33,256 nucleotides of DNA, from NCBI GenBank assembly GCA_945917985.1, contig CAMEIH010000031.1:1-33256 (forward strand), read 5' to 3'. Source of the DNA: an uncultured Clostridium sp. (GTDB lineage Bacteria; Bacillota; Clostridia; Lachnospirales; Lachnospiraceae). Positions 13,356 through 18,945 of the stretch are shown piece after piece (position 1 is the first letter of the stretch; every line of letters starts with the position of its first letter). A model generated the notes under the pieces. The model worked only from the letters and a program-made list of their open reading frames with translations, did no database searches and was not told the origin of the DNA. The position numbers and the translations under genes are program-made.

Positions 13356-15980
13356 ATGGTAAAATGGGTTTATTCTTTTGAAGAAGGTAATGCGGACATG
13401 CGTAACCTCCTTGGAGGAAAAGGTGCAAATCTTGCAGAGATGACTAATCTTGGTCTGCCGATTCCCCAGGGATTTACGGTTACCACGGAAGCATGTACTG
13501 ATTACTATGCAAATGGCAGACAGATTTCAGATGAAATCAAAGAACAGATTTTTACAACACTTTCAGCGCTGGAAGTAAAGCAGGGCAAGAAATTCGGAGA
13601 TACGGAAAATCCGCTCCTCGTTTCCGTTCGTTCCGGTGCGAGAGCATCCATGCCCGGCATGATGGATACCATCTTAAATCTGGGGCTTACCGATGTGGCG
13701 GTTGAAGGCTTTGCGGCAAAGACCGGCAATCCCAGATTCGCATATGATTCTTATCGTCGTTTCATTCAGATGTTTTCCGATGTGGTTATGGAGATTCCCA
13801 AATCTTTCTTTGAGCGAATTCTGGATGAAATCAAGGAGAGCAAGGGCGTTAAATTTGATACGGAGTTAACGGCTGATGACTTAAAGGAAGTTATCGTACG
13901 CTTTAAGGCAGTTTATAAAGATAAGATGGGGGACGATTTCCCCCAGGATCCCAGAGTGCAGCTGATGGAAGCCGTAAAAGCGGTGTTCCGTTCCTGGGAC
14001 AATGAGAGAGCTATCGTTTACAGACGAATGAATGATATTCCCGGTGACTGGGGAACAGCTGTCAACGTGCAGGCCATGGTATTCGGTAACATGGGCAATA
14101 CCTCCGGTACAGGTGTAGCCTTCACCCGAAATCCTTCTACCGGTGAAAAAGGTATTTATGGTGAATACCTGATCAATGCACAGGGAGAGGATGTTGTGGC
14201 CGGTATCAGAACACCACAGCCCATTACCAGACTGGAACAGGATCTTCCGGAATGCTATCAGCAGTTTATTGCAATTGCAAACAAGCTGGAAGATCACTAT
14301 CGCGATATGCAGGATATGGAGTTTACCATCGAGGAAGGTAAACTGTTCTTTTTACAGACAAGAAACGGAAAGAGAACCGCACCTGCAGCTCTTCAGATTG
14401 CCTGTGACCTTGTGGATGAAGGCAAGATCACACCCGAGGAAGCAGTGCTTCGTATTGAAGCGAAATCTTTGGATCAGCTTCTTCATCCTACCTTTGATGC
14501 AGATGCGCTGAAGGCAGGTGTTGTGATCGGACAGGCACTTCCCGCATCTCCCGGTGCTGCGGCAGGTAAGGTTTACTTTACCGCTCAGGAAGCAAAGGCA
14601 GCTCATGAAAAGGGAGAAAGAGTAGTACTGGTTCGTCTGGAGACATCACCGGAAGATATTGAAGGTATGCATGCGGCAGAGGGTATCCTTACTGTAAGAG
14701 GCGGTATGACAAGCCATGCAGCGGTTGTAGCCCGTGGTATGGGAACCTGCTGTGTATCCGGTTGCGGTGAAATTTCCATCAATGAGGAAGAAAAAGTATT
14801 TGAACTTGGCGGACACGTTTATCATGAAGGAGATTACATTTCCTTAGACGGTTCCACCGGTAAAATTTATGACGGAGACATTAAGACAAAGGAAGCAGCT
14901 ATCAGCGGCAACTTTGAGAGAATTATGAACTGGGCAGACTCTTTCCGTAAATTGCAGGTTCGCACCAATGCTGATACACCTGCGGATGCAGCCAATGCAG
15001 TGAAATACGGTGCAGAGGGAATCGGACTTTGCCGTACAGAGCATATGTTCTTTGAACCTGACAGAATTCCCAAGATCCGTCAGATGATTCTTGCGAGAAC
15101 CCAGCAGGAAAGAGAAAAGGCATTAAATGAACTGATCCCCTATCAGAAGGGAGACTTCAAGGGACTTTATGAAGCGATGGAGGGCAGACCGGTTACCATC
15201 CGTTTCCTGGATCCCCCGTTACATGAGTTTGTTCCCACTGAAAAGGATGATATTGATGATCTCGCCATCAAGATGATGATGACAGCGGAGCAGGTACAGG
15301 AAATCTGTGATTCTCTCCATGAGTTTAACCCCATGATGGGGCACAGAGGATGCCGACTTGCCGTTACTTATCCGGAAATTGCCAGAATGCAGACAAGAGC
15401 CGTTATGGAAGCAGCCATTGAAGTGAAAGCGGAAAAGGGATATGATATCGTTCCCGAGATCATGATTCCTCTGGTAGGCGAGAAGAAAGAGCTTAAGTTT
15501 GTCAAAGATGTTGTGGTAGAGACAGCAGAGCAGGTAAAGAAGGAAAAAAATTCCGATATCCAGTATCATATCGGAACCATGATCGAAATCCCGAGAGCAG
15601 CGCTTCTTGCTGATGAGATTGCAGAGGAAGCAGAGTTCTTCTCCTTCGGAACCAACGATCTGACCCAGATGACCTTCGGTTTCTCCAGAGATGATGCCGG
15701 CAAGTTCCTTGGTGACTATTACAAACATAAGATCTACGAATCCGATCCTTTTGCAAGACTGGATCAGAAGGGTGTGGGACAGCTGGTACAGATGGCAGCC
15801 GAGAAAGGCAGAAAGACAAGACCGGATATCAAGCTTGGTATCTGCGGCGAGCACGGCGGAGATCCTTCTTCTGTTGAGTTCTGTCACAAGGTAGGTCTTA
15901 CTTATGTATCCTGCTCACCTTTCAGAGTTCCCATTGCAAGGCTTGCGGCAGCACAGGCAGCTATCAACAGCAAACAGTAA
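13356..15980 (+). CDS. ppdK: Pyruvate, phosphate dikinase
   Basis: Interconverts pyruvate, ATP and phosphate with phosphoenolpyruvate, AMP and pyrophosphate; in clostridia it works in glycolysis with pyrophosphate or in gluconeogenesis. The 874-residue length equals that of the structurally known Clostridium symbiosum enzyme. Domains: N-terminal ATP-grasp (about 1-340; GGKGANLAEM, SVRSGARASMPGMMDT), the swivelling phosphohistidine domain with His454 in GGMTSHAAVVARGMG, and the C-terminal PEP/pyruvate TIM barrel with GHRGCRL, FGTNDLTQMTFG and the catalytic Cys830 in GICGEHGG. GGGAGAG precedes the ATG. It is a single-gene unit with a structured leader and a terminator near 16110. Confidence 0.98.
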   Translation: MVKWVYSFEEGNADMRNLLGGKGANLAEMTNLGLPIPQGFTVTTEACTDYYANGRQISDEIKEQIFTTLSALEVKQGKKFGDTENPLLVSVRSGARASMPGMMDTILNLGLTDVAVEGFAAKTGNPRFAYDSYRRFIQMFSDVVMEIPKSFFERILDEIKESKGVKFDTELTADDLKEVIVRFKAVYKDKMGDDFPQDPRVQLMEAVKAVFRSWDNERAIVYRRMNDIPGDWGTAVNVQAMVFGNMGNTSGTGVAFTRNPSTGEKGIYGEYLINAQGEDVVAGIRTPQPITRLEQDLPECYQQFIAIANKLEDHYRDMQDMEFTIEEGKLFFLQTRNGKRTAPAALQIACDLVDEGKITPEEAVLRIEAKSLDQLLHPTFDADALKAGVVIGQALPASPGAAAGKVYFTAQEAKAAHEKGERVVLVRLETSPEDIEGMHAAEGILTVRGGMTSHAAVVARGMGTCCVSGCGEISINEEEKVFELGGHVYHEGDYISLDGSTGKIYDGDIKTKEAAISGNFERIMNWADSFRKLQVRTNADTPADAANAVKYGAEGIGLCRTEHMFFEPDRIPKIRQMILARTQQEREKALNELIPYQKGDFKGLYEAMEGRPVTIRFLDPPLHEFVPTEKDDIDDLAIKMMMTAEQVQEICDSLHEFNPMMGHRGCRLAVTYPEIARMQTRAVMEAAIEVKAEKGYDIVPEIMIPLVGEKKELKFVKDVVVETAEQVKKEKNSDIQYHIGTMIEIPRAALLADEIAEEAEFFSFGTNDLTQMTFGFSRDDAGKFLGDYYKHKIYESDPFARLDQKGVGQLVQMAAEKGRKTRPDIKLGICGEHGGDPSSVEFCHKVGLTYVSCSPFRVPIARLAAAQAAINSKQ

Positions 15981-15994
15981 TTGAAACTGCTTGT

Positions 15995-16082
15995 TTTCTG
16001 GGAACTTATGAAATACCTAGAGACTATATGATTCGAAGCGCAAGGCTTTATCATAGTCAAAATACATTTCGTTTCCCGGAAA
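15995..16082 (+). other. Structured 3' region after ppdK
   Basis: Three nested inverted repeats are visible: TTTCTGGGAA (15995-16004) / TTCCCGGAAA (16073-16082), GACTAT (16022-16027) / ATAGTC (16053-16058), and AAGC-GCAAG-GCTT (16036-16048). They would fold as one elongated RNA before the terminator. Function unknown; it may be a stabilising 3' UTR or part of a small RNA. Confidence 0.4.
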
Positions 16083-16109
16083 AGATTATAATGAAGCTAT
16101 ACATTGTTT

Positions 16110-16140
16110 AGGGAGTCTGTAATAGGCTCCCTGTATTTTT
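16110..16140 (+). terminator. Intrinsic terminator downstream of ppdK
   Basis: AGGGAGTCT (16110-16118) pairs with AGGCTCCCT (16124-16132) through one G-U pair, loop GTAAT, followed by GTATTTTT. Confidence 0.85.
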
Positions 16141-16240
16141 GCGCAAATAGCGAGGGAAGATGGATGCTTGCATCCAGTTTTGACGAGCATCGAGACAGCC
16201 TGAGAAATATTTCTCAGGCATGAAATTTTGCGTACTGTGA
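16141..16240. repeat. Palindrome-rich non-coding segment, possible interspersed repeat unit
   Basis: No gene is seen. The segment holds a hairpin TGGATG-CTTG-CATCCA (16161-16176) and a perfect 22-nt palindrome (16198-16219, arms GCCTGAGAAAT), flanked by TTTGCGCAAAT (16138-16148) and AAATTTTGCG (16223-16232). The dense symmetry suggests a short structured repeat or RNA element. Only one copy is present in the window, so the repeat nature is inference. Confidence 0.3.
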
Positions 16241-16259
16241 ACCTTGTAGAAAAATGTGG

Positions 16260-16288
16260 TTGATTAATTCGAGAATATGTACTATAAT
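16260..16288 (+). promoter_or_regulatory. Upstream promoter of the DUF3800 RNA/gene unit
   Basis: TTGATT (16260-16265), a 17-nt spacer and TATAAT (16283-16288). An imperfect inverted repeat (CGAGAATATGT near 16270 and ACATAAGTTCG near 16298) brackets the -10 box. Confidence 0.55.
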
Positions 16289-16320
16289 TAAATGAGAACA
16301 TAAGTTCGAAAAAATAGTTA

Positions 16321-16349
16321 TTGCATAAATTTGTTTTTCTGCATATAAT
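16321..16349 (+). promoter_or_regulatory. Proximal promoter of the DUF3800-associated RNA
   Basis: TTGCAT (16321-16326), a 17-nt spacer and TATAAT (16344-16349). The predicted start near 16356 coincides with the foot of the first RNA hairpin, 61 nt below the upstream promoter. Confidence 0.75.
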
Positions 16350-16355
16350 AATAGT

Positions 16356-16436
16356 GTAAACAAGTTTACAATGGGCTGGTCGAAAGACCCAGGTCCAACC
16401 TATTTGGCGGGGAGACTCCCCGCCGTTTTTTATTTT
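16356..16436 (+). ncRNA. Small structured RNA upstream of a DUF3800 gene
   Basis: Three hairpins follow one another. P1 is TGTAAA-CAAG-TTTACA (16355-16370). P2 (16373-16396) pairs GGGCTGGTC with GACCCAGGTCC through two single-base bulges and a GAAA tetraloop (16382-16385). P3 is the GC-rich terminator stem GGCGGGGA-GAC-TCCCCGCC (16406-16424) with a T-tract. A promoter sits exactly upstream. CCAA (16395-16398) could alternatively pair with TTGG (16404-16407), competing with the base of P3. From memory, several conserved RNA motifs named DUF3800-I and onward occur upstream of genes of this family; whether this RNA belongs to one is not tested. It could be a stand-alone RNA or a leader controlling the gene. 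Confidence 0.65.
16406..16436 (+). terminator. Intrinsic terminator between the small RNA and the DUF3800 gene
   Basis: An 8-bp GC-rich stem, GGCGGGGA (16406-16413) with TCCCCGCC (16417-16424), loop GAC, is followed by GTTTTTTATTTT. The AGAGG ribosome site of the next gene begins directly after the T-tract, so gene expression needs read-through. Confidence 0.85.
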
Positions 16437-16445
16437 AGAGGTATT

Positions 16446-17126
16446 ATGAAGGAATTAAGTGTGTTTGTAGATGAATCCGGAGATTTCGGTGAATATGAAA
16501 AGCATGCGCCATATTATATTATTACCATGATTCTACATGACCAGAGCGTTGATATATCAGCAGAAATTAGTAAGCTAAATGAAGTGTTAAAGAATATGGG
16601 GTATGGTAACGAACAGGCGATTCATACAGAACCGCTAATAAGAAGAGAAGATCCATATACATATTTTCAGCCACATGAAAGACGTGCGATATTTTCGAAG
16701 TTATTTTACTTCACGCTCGGATGTGATATTAAATATAAGTCGTTTGTCTATAGAAAATCTGAGTATGAAAATATATTCAAGTTGGAAGCAAGAATGGCGA
16801 GAGATTTATCACAGTTTATTAGGGACAACCTTACATATTTTCAGAGCTTCAGCAAGGTCATTTTATATTATGATAACGGGCAACATGAATTAAATCGTAT
16901 TCTTAATACGGTGTTTGCGACACAGTTGGTTGATTATGATGTACGAAAAGTTATTCCAAACGAATATCGTTTATTCCAAGCAGCAGATTTGATTTGTACT
17001 TTGGAATTATTGCGAGTGAAAACAGAGCATCAGGATTTAACTAATTCAGAAAAGAGAATTTTTCATTCTAAGAGAGATTTGAAGAAGGATTTCTTGAAAG
17101 GAATTAAGAAGAAAGAATTTGTATAG
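16446..17126 (+). CDS. DUF3800 domain protein
   Basis: The family signature is clear: FVDESGDFG at the N-terminus (Asp9, Glu10), an acidic strand ILYYDNG (Asp143) and FQAADLIC near the C-terminus (Asp181). These spaced acidic residues resemble an RNase H-like metal site, so a nuclease activity is a reasonable inference, unproven for the family. Length is 226 residues. The start at 16446 follows AGAGG (16437-16441) by 4 nt; an in-frame ATG at 16371 would have translation run through the RNA hairpins and terminator and is rejected. Codon use and base composition are more AT-rich than ppdK, suggesting transfer. The neighbouring structured RNA suggests an RNA-protein pair, possibly defence or toxin-antitoxin; this is a hypothesis. 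Confidence 0.85.
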   Translation: MKELSVFVDESGDFGEYEKHAPYYIITMILHDQSVDISAEISKLNEVLKNMGYGNEQAIHTEPLIRREDPYTYFQPHERRAIFSKLFYFTLGCDIKYKSFVYRKSEYENIFKLEARMARDLSQFIRDNLTYFQSFSKVILYYDNGQHELNRILNTVFATQLVDYDVRKVIPNEYRLFQAADLICTLELLRVKTEHQDLTNSEKRIFHSKRDLKKDFLKGIKKKEFV

Positions 17127-17296
17127 AGAATATGACACTATGCTCTTTACATGAGCAGAGTGAGACAATTAATGTTTTATGGGAGAAGAATAATGCATGG
17201 ACTAATATTGTTAAAGTTTCTTTGGTAATCAATATATAACCTATGAAAAATAATCGGAATTGCAAAAGCACTTTTACATAAAAGGAGAATGGCATA

Positions 17297-18130
17297 ATGG
17301 ACAGATTTATGAATATTAAGGAGAAATTGCTTTCCTTAGCCAGGGAAGATGAAGATATTAAGGCAGTTGTTTTGATAGGCTCTTCAACCAGAGATACGGT
17401 AAAAGCAGATGAATATTCTGATTTGGACGTTGTGATTACAACAGTAAAACCGGAAGGATGGTTATACGGAGATTATCCGGAAAAACTTGGGAGTGTGAAA
17501 ATATCTTTTGTTGAACCAACACTTGGTGGTGGAAGAGAAAGAAGAATGTTATATGACGGTTCGCTTGACGTTGACATGATTATATTTACACCGGGTCAGT
17601 TTGAAAAAGCGATAAGGGAAGGCGTCGCAAGCTGGGTTATGAACCGAGGATATGAGATAATGTATGATGCAGGAGGATATTCGGGACTGTTAGAAGAGAA
17701 TATTTCGCATGAGCTTAAGCCCACAGATTTATCGGAACCGGAATTTAATAATATGGTAAACGATTTCCTCTTCCATACCATATGGGCATCCAAAAAGATA
17801 CTTCGTGGTGAATTGTGGACCGCTAAAATGTGTATTGACGCTTATTTAAAAAAATATCTGCTGAACATGATTGAGATGTATTCAGTGTCAAAATACCATG
17901 TTGATGTATGGCATGATGGAAGATTTCTGGATCGATGGGCCGAGAAGGAAATTCTTATGGATTTGGAAAAGTGCTTTGCCCACTATGACAGGAAGGATAT
18001 GGTATCTGCTTTGTTGTCTACCCTAGAGCTTTTTTGCAGATTGGCAAGTCAGACAGCAGAAATAAAGGGGTACAAATATCCTGAAGAGGCTGAAGAATAT
18101 ACTAAGGTTTTGTTGGAGAAAACAAAGTGA
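17297..18130 (+). CDS. Aminoglycoside 6-adenylyltransferase (AadE/ANT(6)) family nucleotidyltransferase
   Basis: The protein matches the streptomycin adenylyltransferase family: a conserved N-terminal region (KLLSLAREDEDIKAVVLIGSS), the catalytic nucleotidyltransferase motif GSSTRDTVKADEYSDLDVVI (about residues 28-47), a third acidic position in LDVDMIIF (about 95), then a helical C-terminal half with YLKKYLLNMIEM and a region like the AadE tail (FCRLASQTAEIKGYKYPE). Length 277 residues is normal. Clinically known AadE proteins are only distantly similar by eye, so it may adenylylate another substrate or be a chromosomal homologue without resistance. AAAGGAG precedes ATG 17297 by 9 nt. The last codon and stop overlap the next gene's GTG start. 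Confidence 0.8.
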   Translation: MDRFMNIKEKLLSLAREDEDIKAVVLIGSSTRDTVKADEYSDLDVVITTVKPEGWLYGDYPEKLGSVKISFVEPTLGGGRERRMLYDGSLDVDMIIFTPGQFEKAIREGVASWVMNRGYEIMYDAGGYSGLLEENISHELKPTDLSEPEFNNMVNDFLFHTIWASKKILRGELWTAKMCIDAYLKKYLLNMIEMYSVSKYHVDVWHDGRFLDRWAEKEILMDLEKCFAHYDRKDMVSALLSTLELFCRLASQTAEIKGYKYPEEAEEYTKVLLEKTK

Positions 18131-18945
18131 AAAAATATATGTTACCGATTATTATGTTGACAATATTCGAAACCATAGCAGTTACTCTGTGGTTGACAAT
18201 GGATAATTTGTTTTACCTGTTTAATTTCAGTTATATTGGAATCTCAATATCTCTTGGAATATTTCTGTTTATTAAAAAGTATAAGTATGCTCGCCGCATT
18301 ACACAGCTTCTGGTTGGATTATATATGCTGGTATATTTGGGGTTAATCAGCAATGAAAATATGCAGATTGAGGGATTCTGGTATTATCTTTTTACAGGTG
18401 TATTTGAAGCTGCAACCATTCATTATGCGGTCGCAAAAATTTTTGGACCTTTACTTTTTGGCAGAGGCTGGTGCGGTTATGCCTGTTGGACGGCAATGGT
18501 ACTTGATTTCCTGCCATATAAAGTTCCTGAAACACCAAGAAAAAAGATTGGATGGATAAGGTATCTTACGTTCGCAGCTTCGCTTGTATTTGTTTCAGCA
18601 TTATTTCTTGCACAGGTTGGCAACTTTGAAAGAATCATGTTTTGGGCGTTTATTATAGGAAATGTATTGTATTATACTGTCGGGATCATATTGGCATTTG
18701 CTTTTAAGGATAATCGTGCATTTTGCAAATACATATGTCCAATTACCGTATTTTTGAAACCCATGAGTTATTTTTCGTTATTACGAATTAAATGTGATAA
18801 AAGCAAATGTATCTCTTGTGGGAAATGCAAAAAAGTATGCCCGATGGAAGTAGATGTTACGGATAATTCCAGAAAACGAAAAAATGGCACAGAATGTATT
18901 CTTTGCTTTGAGTGTGTTAAGAATTGTCCAAAGGATGCATTGTAA
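18127..18945 (+). CDS. NapH-like membrane protein with two [4Fe-4S] ferredoxin motifs
   Basis: About five to six membrane helices (around 5-24, 30-50, 57-74, 90-112, 146-164, 170-193) precede a C-terminal polyferredoxin. Clusters: CxxCxxCxxxCP at Cys228, 231, 234 and 238, and again at Cys257, 260, 263 and 267. The membrane part has the family pairs Cys116/Cys120 (GRGWCGYACW) and Cys200/Cys204 (FCKYICP). NapH/RnfB-like members pass electrons between quinol or ferredoxin and periplasmic or membrane partners; the partner is unknown here. The start is GTG at 18127, overlapping the upstream TGA as GTGA, with GGAG 8 nt before it, so translation is coupled to the nucleotidyltransferase. Composition is AT-rich. 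Confidence 0.85.
   Translation: MKKYMLPIIMLTIFETIAVTLWLTMDNLFYLFNFSYIGISISLGIFLFIKKYKYARRITQLLVGLYMLVYLGLISNENMQIEGFWYYLFTGVFEAATIHYAVAKIFGPLLFGRGWCGYACWTAMVLDFLPYKVPETPRKKIGWIRYLTFAASLVFVSALFLAQVGNFERIMFWAFIIGNVLYYTVGIILAFAFKDNRAFCKYICPITVFLKPMSYFSLLRIKCDKSKCISCGKCKKVCPMEVDVTDNSRKRKNGTECILCFECVKNCPKDAL

Follow-up and report, generated by a model that had tools for sequence, protein, structure and literature searches.

A DUF3800-XI RNA and its DUF3800 gene in Lachnospiraceae: one-way association, solitary RNA copies in chromosomes and phages, and a possible type III-like module

Organization of the locus

The window, meaning the whole stretch of 33,256 nucleotides that was analysed, carries on its forward strand a compact arrangement of promoter, small structured RNA, terminator and a gene coding a DUF3800 protein of 226 amino acids (positions 16446..17126). 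The promoter (16321..16349), identified by eye, combines a -35 hexamer TTGCAT (16321-16326) and a -10 hexamer TATAAT (16344-16349) separated by a 17-nt spacer. It lies near the left edge of a cassette shared with another locus (L045), whose homology to the window (87.8% identity) begins at position 16320. A preliminary description of this DNA had called the promoter near-consensus. The locus is upheld, but the qualification was generous: the -35 hexamer matches that of a sigma-70-like promoter at 3 of 6 positions and the site is absent from the list of a promoter scan, which returned 6 promoter-like sites against 6.0 expected.

The RNA comprises an optional 5' hairpin, P1 (16355..16370), defined by folding, a core hairpin, P2 (16372..16397), and a terminator hairpin, P3 (16406..16424), identified by folding, terminator scan and compensatory changes. 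P2 is built of a 6-bp basal stem, a 2-nt bulge, a 4-bp apical stem and a GAAA loop. A linker beginning with ACC (16398..16405), delimited from aligned RNA copies, connects it to P3, and ACC or CC after GGUCCA is retained in most class I copies. P3 is followed by a T-tract (16426-16436), a Shine-Dalgarno-like AGAGG (16437-16441) and the ATG start codon at 16446. The three-hairpin RNA ending in a terminator, with the ribosome site placed right after the T-tract, was thus correctly recognised at first reading: the fold has a minimum free energy of -32.3 kcal/mol (z -3.85; 0/200 shuffles as good) and the scan picks up the terminator as one of 3 terminator-like sites in the region, where 0.6 would be expected. 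The absence of tandem repeats, pointed out earlier as a difference from ToxI, also holds, none being found at 16200-17200.

The genome from which the window derives has three copies of the RNA, each accompanied by a full-length DUF3800 gene. The gene adjoining the cassette in the window (17297-18130) matches streptomycin adenylyltransferase (PF04439, E 1.3e-30).

The RNA family and its structure

The covariance-model search that the preliminary description had proposed identified the RNA as Rfam DUF3800-XI (RF02975; match at 16372-16421, directly upstream of the DUF3800 gene; 66.2 bits versus a gathering score of 37.8). The RNA-protein pair, put forward as a plausible new system, is therefore not new in itself. 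Since the RF02975 model (48 positions) extends from the start of P2 to inside P3, P1 falls outside it. The optional character of P1 is apparent after dereplication of 94 loci to 86: perfect stems of at least 6 bp upstream of P2 occur in 30% of these, versus 5% after shuffling.

Among 21 aligned class I RNAs, pairing is kept in 97.5% of the cells and two-sided changes are found at 9 pairs versus a shuffled mean of 4.3, with a covariation score of 0.324 (shuffled mean 0.142; best slid control 0.083). Covarying pairs are thus present upstream of orthologues, as expected from a structured RNA in the first interpretation of the locus. A second class of the RNA is also base-paired, as judged by eye, with basal stems of the UGAUCU/GGAUCA type, an apical GGGC/GCUC stem and a longer bulge. 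Unpaired parts of the RNA are short, consisting of a 4-nt loop and a linker of ~6-9 nt. Several DUF3800-associated motifs have Rfam entries (e.g. DUF3800-I, -IX and -XI), and the accessible text of the literature searched on DUF3800 assigns them no function.

The DUF3800 protein

The protein matches PF12686 (DUF3800) with 38.5 bits, the Pfam cut-off being 21. A Pfam scan at E 0.001 gave no other family, leaving the protein outside RNase HII and outside ToxN/AbiQ/CptN/TenpN by sequence. Sequence relatives in the PDB were absent up to E 10, and none of the PADLOC models matched up to E 1. The AF2 model (pLDDT 92.9) has RNase HII as best match among solved folds, the top-ranking rows showing 9-16% identity, with integrases as weaker matches. 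Asp9, Glu10, Asp143 and Asp181, singled out beforehand as a candidate RNase H-like acidic site, are invariant in 63/63 aligned proteins. The predicted fold of the protein is RNase H-like and close to that of RNase HII.

Association of the RNA with the protein

A profile search with the protein found at least 332 relatives in GTDB genomes, of which the best 80 were used, and 17 loci in IMG/VR. In the matches listed, the relatives are labelled Lachnospiraceae, Treponema, Fibrobacter, Flexilinea, Actinomycetes and others, with several metagenome bins among them. In 92 of 93 loci (the best 80 of at least 332 from genomes plus 13 viral ones), the match to RNA model R1 begins 57-151 nt upstream of the protein, the weakest matches being L134 (21.1 bits) and L067 (22.0). 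At the remaining locus, L104, the contig begins inside the RNA. An in-frame stop interrupts 5 of the 93 proteins. The other four viral loci are two cut proteins with the RNA (L138, L139) and two loci without such RNA (L140, L141), whose proteins show 40-42% identity over 43 residues only. Distances between RNAs and between proteins correlate over 62 loci (Mantel r 0.519; 0/2000 permutations as high), as expected for a jointly inherited pair.

The association was also counted in both directions in 397 Lachnospiraceae genomes. The protein profile detected 34 full-length, stop-free DUF3800 genes, 33 of which have the RNA 70-150 nt upstream; the gene of the 34th (G837:C142) starts 50 nt from a contig end. 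Apart from this contig-end case, no intact DUF3800 protein without RNA was seen in the 397 genomes, and two genomes lacking any RNA match (G887 and G1082) contain a protein fragment. Conversely, model R2 found 89 RNA places in 64 genomes. Excluding five with less than 700 nt downstream (L184, L192, L203, L229, L254) and two without P2 (L252, L253), 82 are assessable: an intact gene follows 33 of them and a broken or partial gene 13, and for 36 the profile detects none, although the first few codons can still be recognised by eye at some of these. An intact protein is thus missing at 49 of the 82 assessable copies. The association is one-way: the RNA often persists without the protein, not the reverse. 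A phylum-wide sample had 3 positives in 398 genomes, the window's own included and under stricter filters, which suggests a family concentrated in Lachnospiraceae and scattered elsewhere.

Solitary and decayed chromosomal copies

RNA-only copies retain on average 9.17 of the 10 base pairs of P2 and 6.78 of the 7 of P3 (36 rows), compared with 9.34 and 6.94 at intact loci (35 rows, two of them second weak matches) and 9.67 and 6.93 at broken-gene loci (15 rows); at least 16 of the 17 pairs stand in 69% of the 36 RNA-only rows versus 91% of the 35 intact-locus rows, all these values being biased towards intact RNAs because the copies were found with a structure model. The promoter is not part of the RNA model used to find the copies; promoter-like sites are present at 18/36 RNA-only copies (shuffled 0.18), 17/33 intact loci (0.21) and 4/15 broken loci (0.14).

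In the first sample, five copies (L005, L017, L020, L030, L037) have internal gene deletions with both gene ends kept. L020 occupies the same place as its intact orthologues L021/L022, which indicates decay in place. Another candidate of this sample, L032, was discarded as a false positive lying inside an ORF. Proximity of RNA-only chromosomal copies to tRNAs showed no clear difference (3 tRNAs for 33 intact loci, 4 for 39 without intact gene). Pairs of RNA-only copies with common flanks, sought as a measure of constraint, were not found. Second RNA copies lie near the first, sometimes in convergent orientation (L041 4970-5135, L111 5693-5754, L063 6595-6660, L023 307-368, L168 3258 and 5486), which looks like the decay of several adjacent loci.

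The transferred unit and its surroundings

Over window positions 15000-18500, similarity to L045, a locus of another Lachnospiraceae genome, is confined at E 1e-5 to 16320-17125. Likewise, L059 and L061 have 818 bp in common at 99.1% in different places, L059 stopping there at a contig end. Judged from these alignments, the transferred unit is promoter, RNA and ORF only, ~0.8 kb. In 12 loci measured, the left edge of the common unit precedes the RNA by 21-94 nt, and its right edge falls anywhere from 7 nt short of the gene end to 38 nt past it; the sequence shared by L077 and L125 extends further. The edges vary among pairs and no terminal repeat common to the aligned edge sets was seen, so that precise transposition is not supported.

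For each of the 80 genome loci, the closest ORF on either side was also compared with protein families (127 ORFs of 90-600 amino acids; longer ORFs and missing sides were dropped). No PADLOC family matches more than 2 of the 127 neighbours (best 25 of 84 families) and no Pfam family more than 5 (best 25 of 130 families), although single neighbours match AbiEi, Cas1 and others. A defence-island setting, lacking a recurrent defence family, is therefore unsupported and was rejected.

Copies of the RNA in phages

Six motif scans of IMG/VR gave 32 virus records carrying the RNA. Four contain an intact DUF3800 gene (L125, L147, L153 and L169, the latter being the record of L136) and one, L154, a broken gene start at a contig end. 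The other 27 have the RNA only, with no adjoining DUF3800 gene, and represent ~22 distinct loci because L144/L152, L145/L149/L155, L146/L150 and L161/L164 are repeats. PF12686 was found in none of the 25 RNA-only records searched whole, which may be fragments (L146 and L325 were outside this search). Phage status follows the IMG/VR classification, in some cases together with tRNA/ROOL context, for G392, G393, G403, G405, G406, G407, G408, G409, G411, G412, G413, G414, G415 and G1134; G393 also codes integrase and DnaB families. Only one of 50,697 isolated phages (a partial match) and one of 72,556 plasmids (31% identity) were positive.

RF02975 scores above threshold in at least 14 distinct phage loci among the matches listed. 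L158, L159, L161/L164, L162, L163, L165 and L170 lie outside those matches and score 22.7-35.9 bits with R2, mainly over P2. Of the inner-stem pairs on which the search pattern places no constraint, 50/51 are complementary; these are three apical pairs in each of 17 distinct sequences, L169 with its DUF3800 gene among them. Two compensatory pairs set apart the P2 hairpins of the related phages L157 and L160 (83.4% over 845 bp). P3 is lacking or altered in several phage copies and the T-tract is often missing, while P2, the part retained in phage copies, is kept. A decoy would consequently need to act through P2 alone.

Two genomic settings recur. In the first, the RNA lies between an exonuclease gene (phrog_284 in L145, L148 and L151; homologues in L150, L299 and L312) and a terminase gene. 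Terminase families are found near the RNA in L148, L150, L151 and L155, and portal families in L148 and L150. The terminases of these phages are down to 32% identical. The RNA is present in 10 of 65 terminase-related phage loci (L258, L259, L272, L261, L312, L313, L314, L299, L146, L151). Two of these, L312 and L299, were reached via the terminase instead of the motif; they keep GGGCUG and GGUCCACC and have a replaced apical stem. A terminase check detected phrog_2 in 10/24 records and phrog_9 in 0/9 others. In the second setting the RNA is found within tRNA arrays together with ROOL and drum RNAs, and an excerpt of PMC12286853 places ROOL RNA near phage tRNA islands. Drum RNA (RF02958) stands head-to-tail with RNA-only DUF3800-XI in L145 (11384-11551, 88.5 bits; also in L149 and L155) and in L165 (2977-3134, 52.5 bits).

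Three P2 matches in phage records overlap cow-rumen-3 (RF03083) matches that remain below the threshold of 86.7 bits: G409:C1:13094-13183 (70.8 bits), G405:C1:10276-10406 (70.0) and G408:C1:5362-5474 (62.4). No DUF3800 gene was found in these three records. A second RF03083 place in G409 exceeds the threshold (108.4 bits), and P2 of the window aligns to the RF03083 3' hairpin with 19.4 bits, below it. Cow-rumen-3 is a 141-nt RNA with further hairpins, unlike DUF3800-XI, yet the two seem to have a P2 hairpin module in common.

Several further features were observed in the virus records. The terminase frames of G394 and G402 (L144, L156) cross 2 TAG codons, and a tRNA with a CTA anticodon is present in L156; these phages are perhaps TAG-recoding. 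A Twister-P5 ribozyme match (L171 2321-2374) lies in a phage record with an RNA-only copy. In L143 (12236-12436), on a contig with integrase and DnaB families, the RNA is followed by a 67-amino-acid ORF with a signal-peptide-like start in place of DUF3800. The IMG/VR contigs of L128/L129, L130 and L131-L137 have the RNA and a DUF3800 gene, compatible both with prophage cargo and with host flanks.

Proposed function and alternatives

The gene order, the lack of intact proteins without RNA, the persistence of solitary RNAs and the RNA-only phage copies agree with an RNA that keeps a harmful protein in check. On this reading, given a probability of roughly 0.53, the locus would be a type III-like module of toxin-antitoxin or abortive infection, with the DUF3800 nuclease under restraint by the RNA and decoy RNAs carried by phages. 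A single promoter would drive a short, stable RNA made up of P2, P3 and optionally P1. Transcription would mostly end at P3, with occasional read-through yielding the DUF3800 mRNA, so that the RNA would be in excess. The RNA may bind the RNase H-like protein via the basal stem of P2 together with the ACC-like linker, keeping the acidic D-E-D-D site inactive. An infecting phage that stops or degrades host transcripts would cause the labile RNA to drop, and the freed nuclease might then damage nucleic acid and abort the infection. P2 copies in phages, whether within tRNA/ncRNA arrays or next to the terminase gene, would act as decoys that keep the nuclease bound.

The preliminary description had left open an RNA-guided or an RNA-inhibited nuclease. 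The second option is favoured by the common RNA-only copies, the lack of protein-only ones and the occurrence of the RNA alone in phages; guiding is less so, given the short unpaired parts. Some findings speak against the restraint reading. An obligate cofactor RNA would equally give no protein without RNA, and under neutral decay an RNA of 60 nt outlasts a gene of 680 bp. Among the 65 terminase-related phage loci, those with the RNA are a minority of 10. A classic defence gene is at odds with the missing common defence family in the neighbourhood and with the near absence from isolated phages and plasmids.

The most serious competitor, clearly the less probable of the two, is an active ribonucleoprotein: the RNA, as obligate cofactor or guide, would bring the DUF3800 nuclease to a target, and the RNAs of phages would serve as sponges. 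It accounts for the RNA found with every intact protein away from contig ends and draws on the DUF3800 proteins that accompany Cas12a2 (V-A2) and VI-F loci, as reported in the available portions of PMC10910872 and PMC12669027. A guide has little unpaired RNA to work with here, however, and if the RNA were purely a cofactor, its persistence with promoter-like sites once the gene is lost would be hard to explain. The estimate for restraint was set slightly lower, and that for a cofactor slightly higher, because RNA-only copies are more decayed and the promoters of broken loci weak.

Two other explanations are improbable to a similar degree. DUF3800 could be an RNase H-fold transposase or recombinase working with the RNA, the solitary RNAs being internal-deletion derivatives of a mobile element. 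The minimal transferred unit, the gene ends kept in internal deletions and the weaker matches of the predicted fold to integrases agree with it, but the variable edges devoid of a common terminal repeat do not, nor does L020, decayed where its orthologues stand intact. Alternatively, the RNA could be a simple attenuator that only sets DUF3800 expression, or an unrelated trans-acting sRNA, as the P3 terminator upstream of the gene and the existence of solitary copies allow. Attenuation, however, does not need the covariation and kept sequence of P2, which phage copies without the gene, and often without the T-tract, still preserve. That the hairpin serves phage tRNA-array biology and was later borrowed by the bacterial family is highly improbable: many phage copies do lie among tRNAs, but divergent phages (L145, L146, L148, L150, L151, L155) have the exonuclease-RNA-terminase order with no tRNA in the locus, and at least 14 distinct phage loci reach the RF02975 threshold.

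If the RNA restrains the nuclease, an RNase H-fold effector would be added to the systems with RNA antitoxins. A broader and more tentative proposal, held with somewhat less than even confidence, is that the tRNA-array islands of small RNAs in large gut phages (the DUF3800-XI hairpin, cow-rumen-3 and possibly drum) are decoys against RNA-restrained nucleases such as DUF3800. Part of the unexplained repertoire of phage ncRNAs would then be an anti-defence arsenal, orphan RNA families would point to the host nucleases that they disarm, cow-rumen-3 would gain a role and phage tRNA arrays would be worth reading for RNA decoys. The one-way association and the RNA-only phage copies provide a testable function for at least one DUF3800-associated RNA.

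Comparison with known systems

The fold of ToxN differs from the RNase H-like fold predicted for the DUF3800 protein. Type III toxin-antitoxin loci have the order promoter, small structured RNA, terminator, protein gene (accessible text of PMC12373285). The same order, with a promoter identified by eye, is found here, and the likeness to type III and AbiF loci perceived in the preliminary description is real at this level. The antitoxins of ToxIN, CptIN, TenpIN and AbiQ are, however, tandem-repeat RNAs, while the locus has a single P2 and no repeats. Together with the different fold this excludes the locus from the ToxIN family, and assignment to type III proper was rejected as two defining features fail, the repeat RNA and a toxin of the ToxN/AbiQ/CptN/TenpN families. 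Phage mimicry of the ToxIN antitoxin is on record as pseudo-ToxI (PMC3475682, in the portion available).

In AbiF/RCd22 of Clostridioides difficile an ncRNA neutralises the neighbouring toxic protein by direct binding, according to the same accessible text (PMC12373285). A structured ncRNA adjoins a protein gene in both cases; toxicity and binding, reported there for AbiF, would have their counterparts here. As far as that text goes, AbiF/RCd22 differs by its Abi_2/AbiD/F protein, a family unrelated to DUF3800, by its two abiF motifs and by being prophage-borne. The DUF3800 proteins of Cas12a2 and VI-F loci share with the window protein an RNase H-fold domain and an RNA-linked immune setting, but are described in the portions available as CRISPR accessories, those of Cas12a2 having TPR domains, in contrast to the stand-alone protein of the window. 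RNase HII / RNase H2 is the closest in predicted fold, but identity is low and DUF3800 the sole Pfam assignment. The locus is best placed as a member of the RF02975-PF12686 pair, with the gene directly downstream of the RNA. To an Rfam entry that holds a name and a type only, the present analysis adds the RNA copies of phages, the finding that the association runs one way and the extent of the transferred unit.
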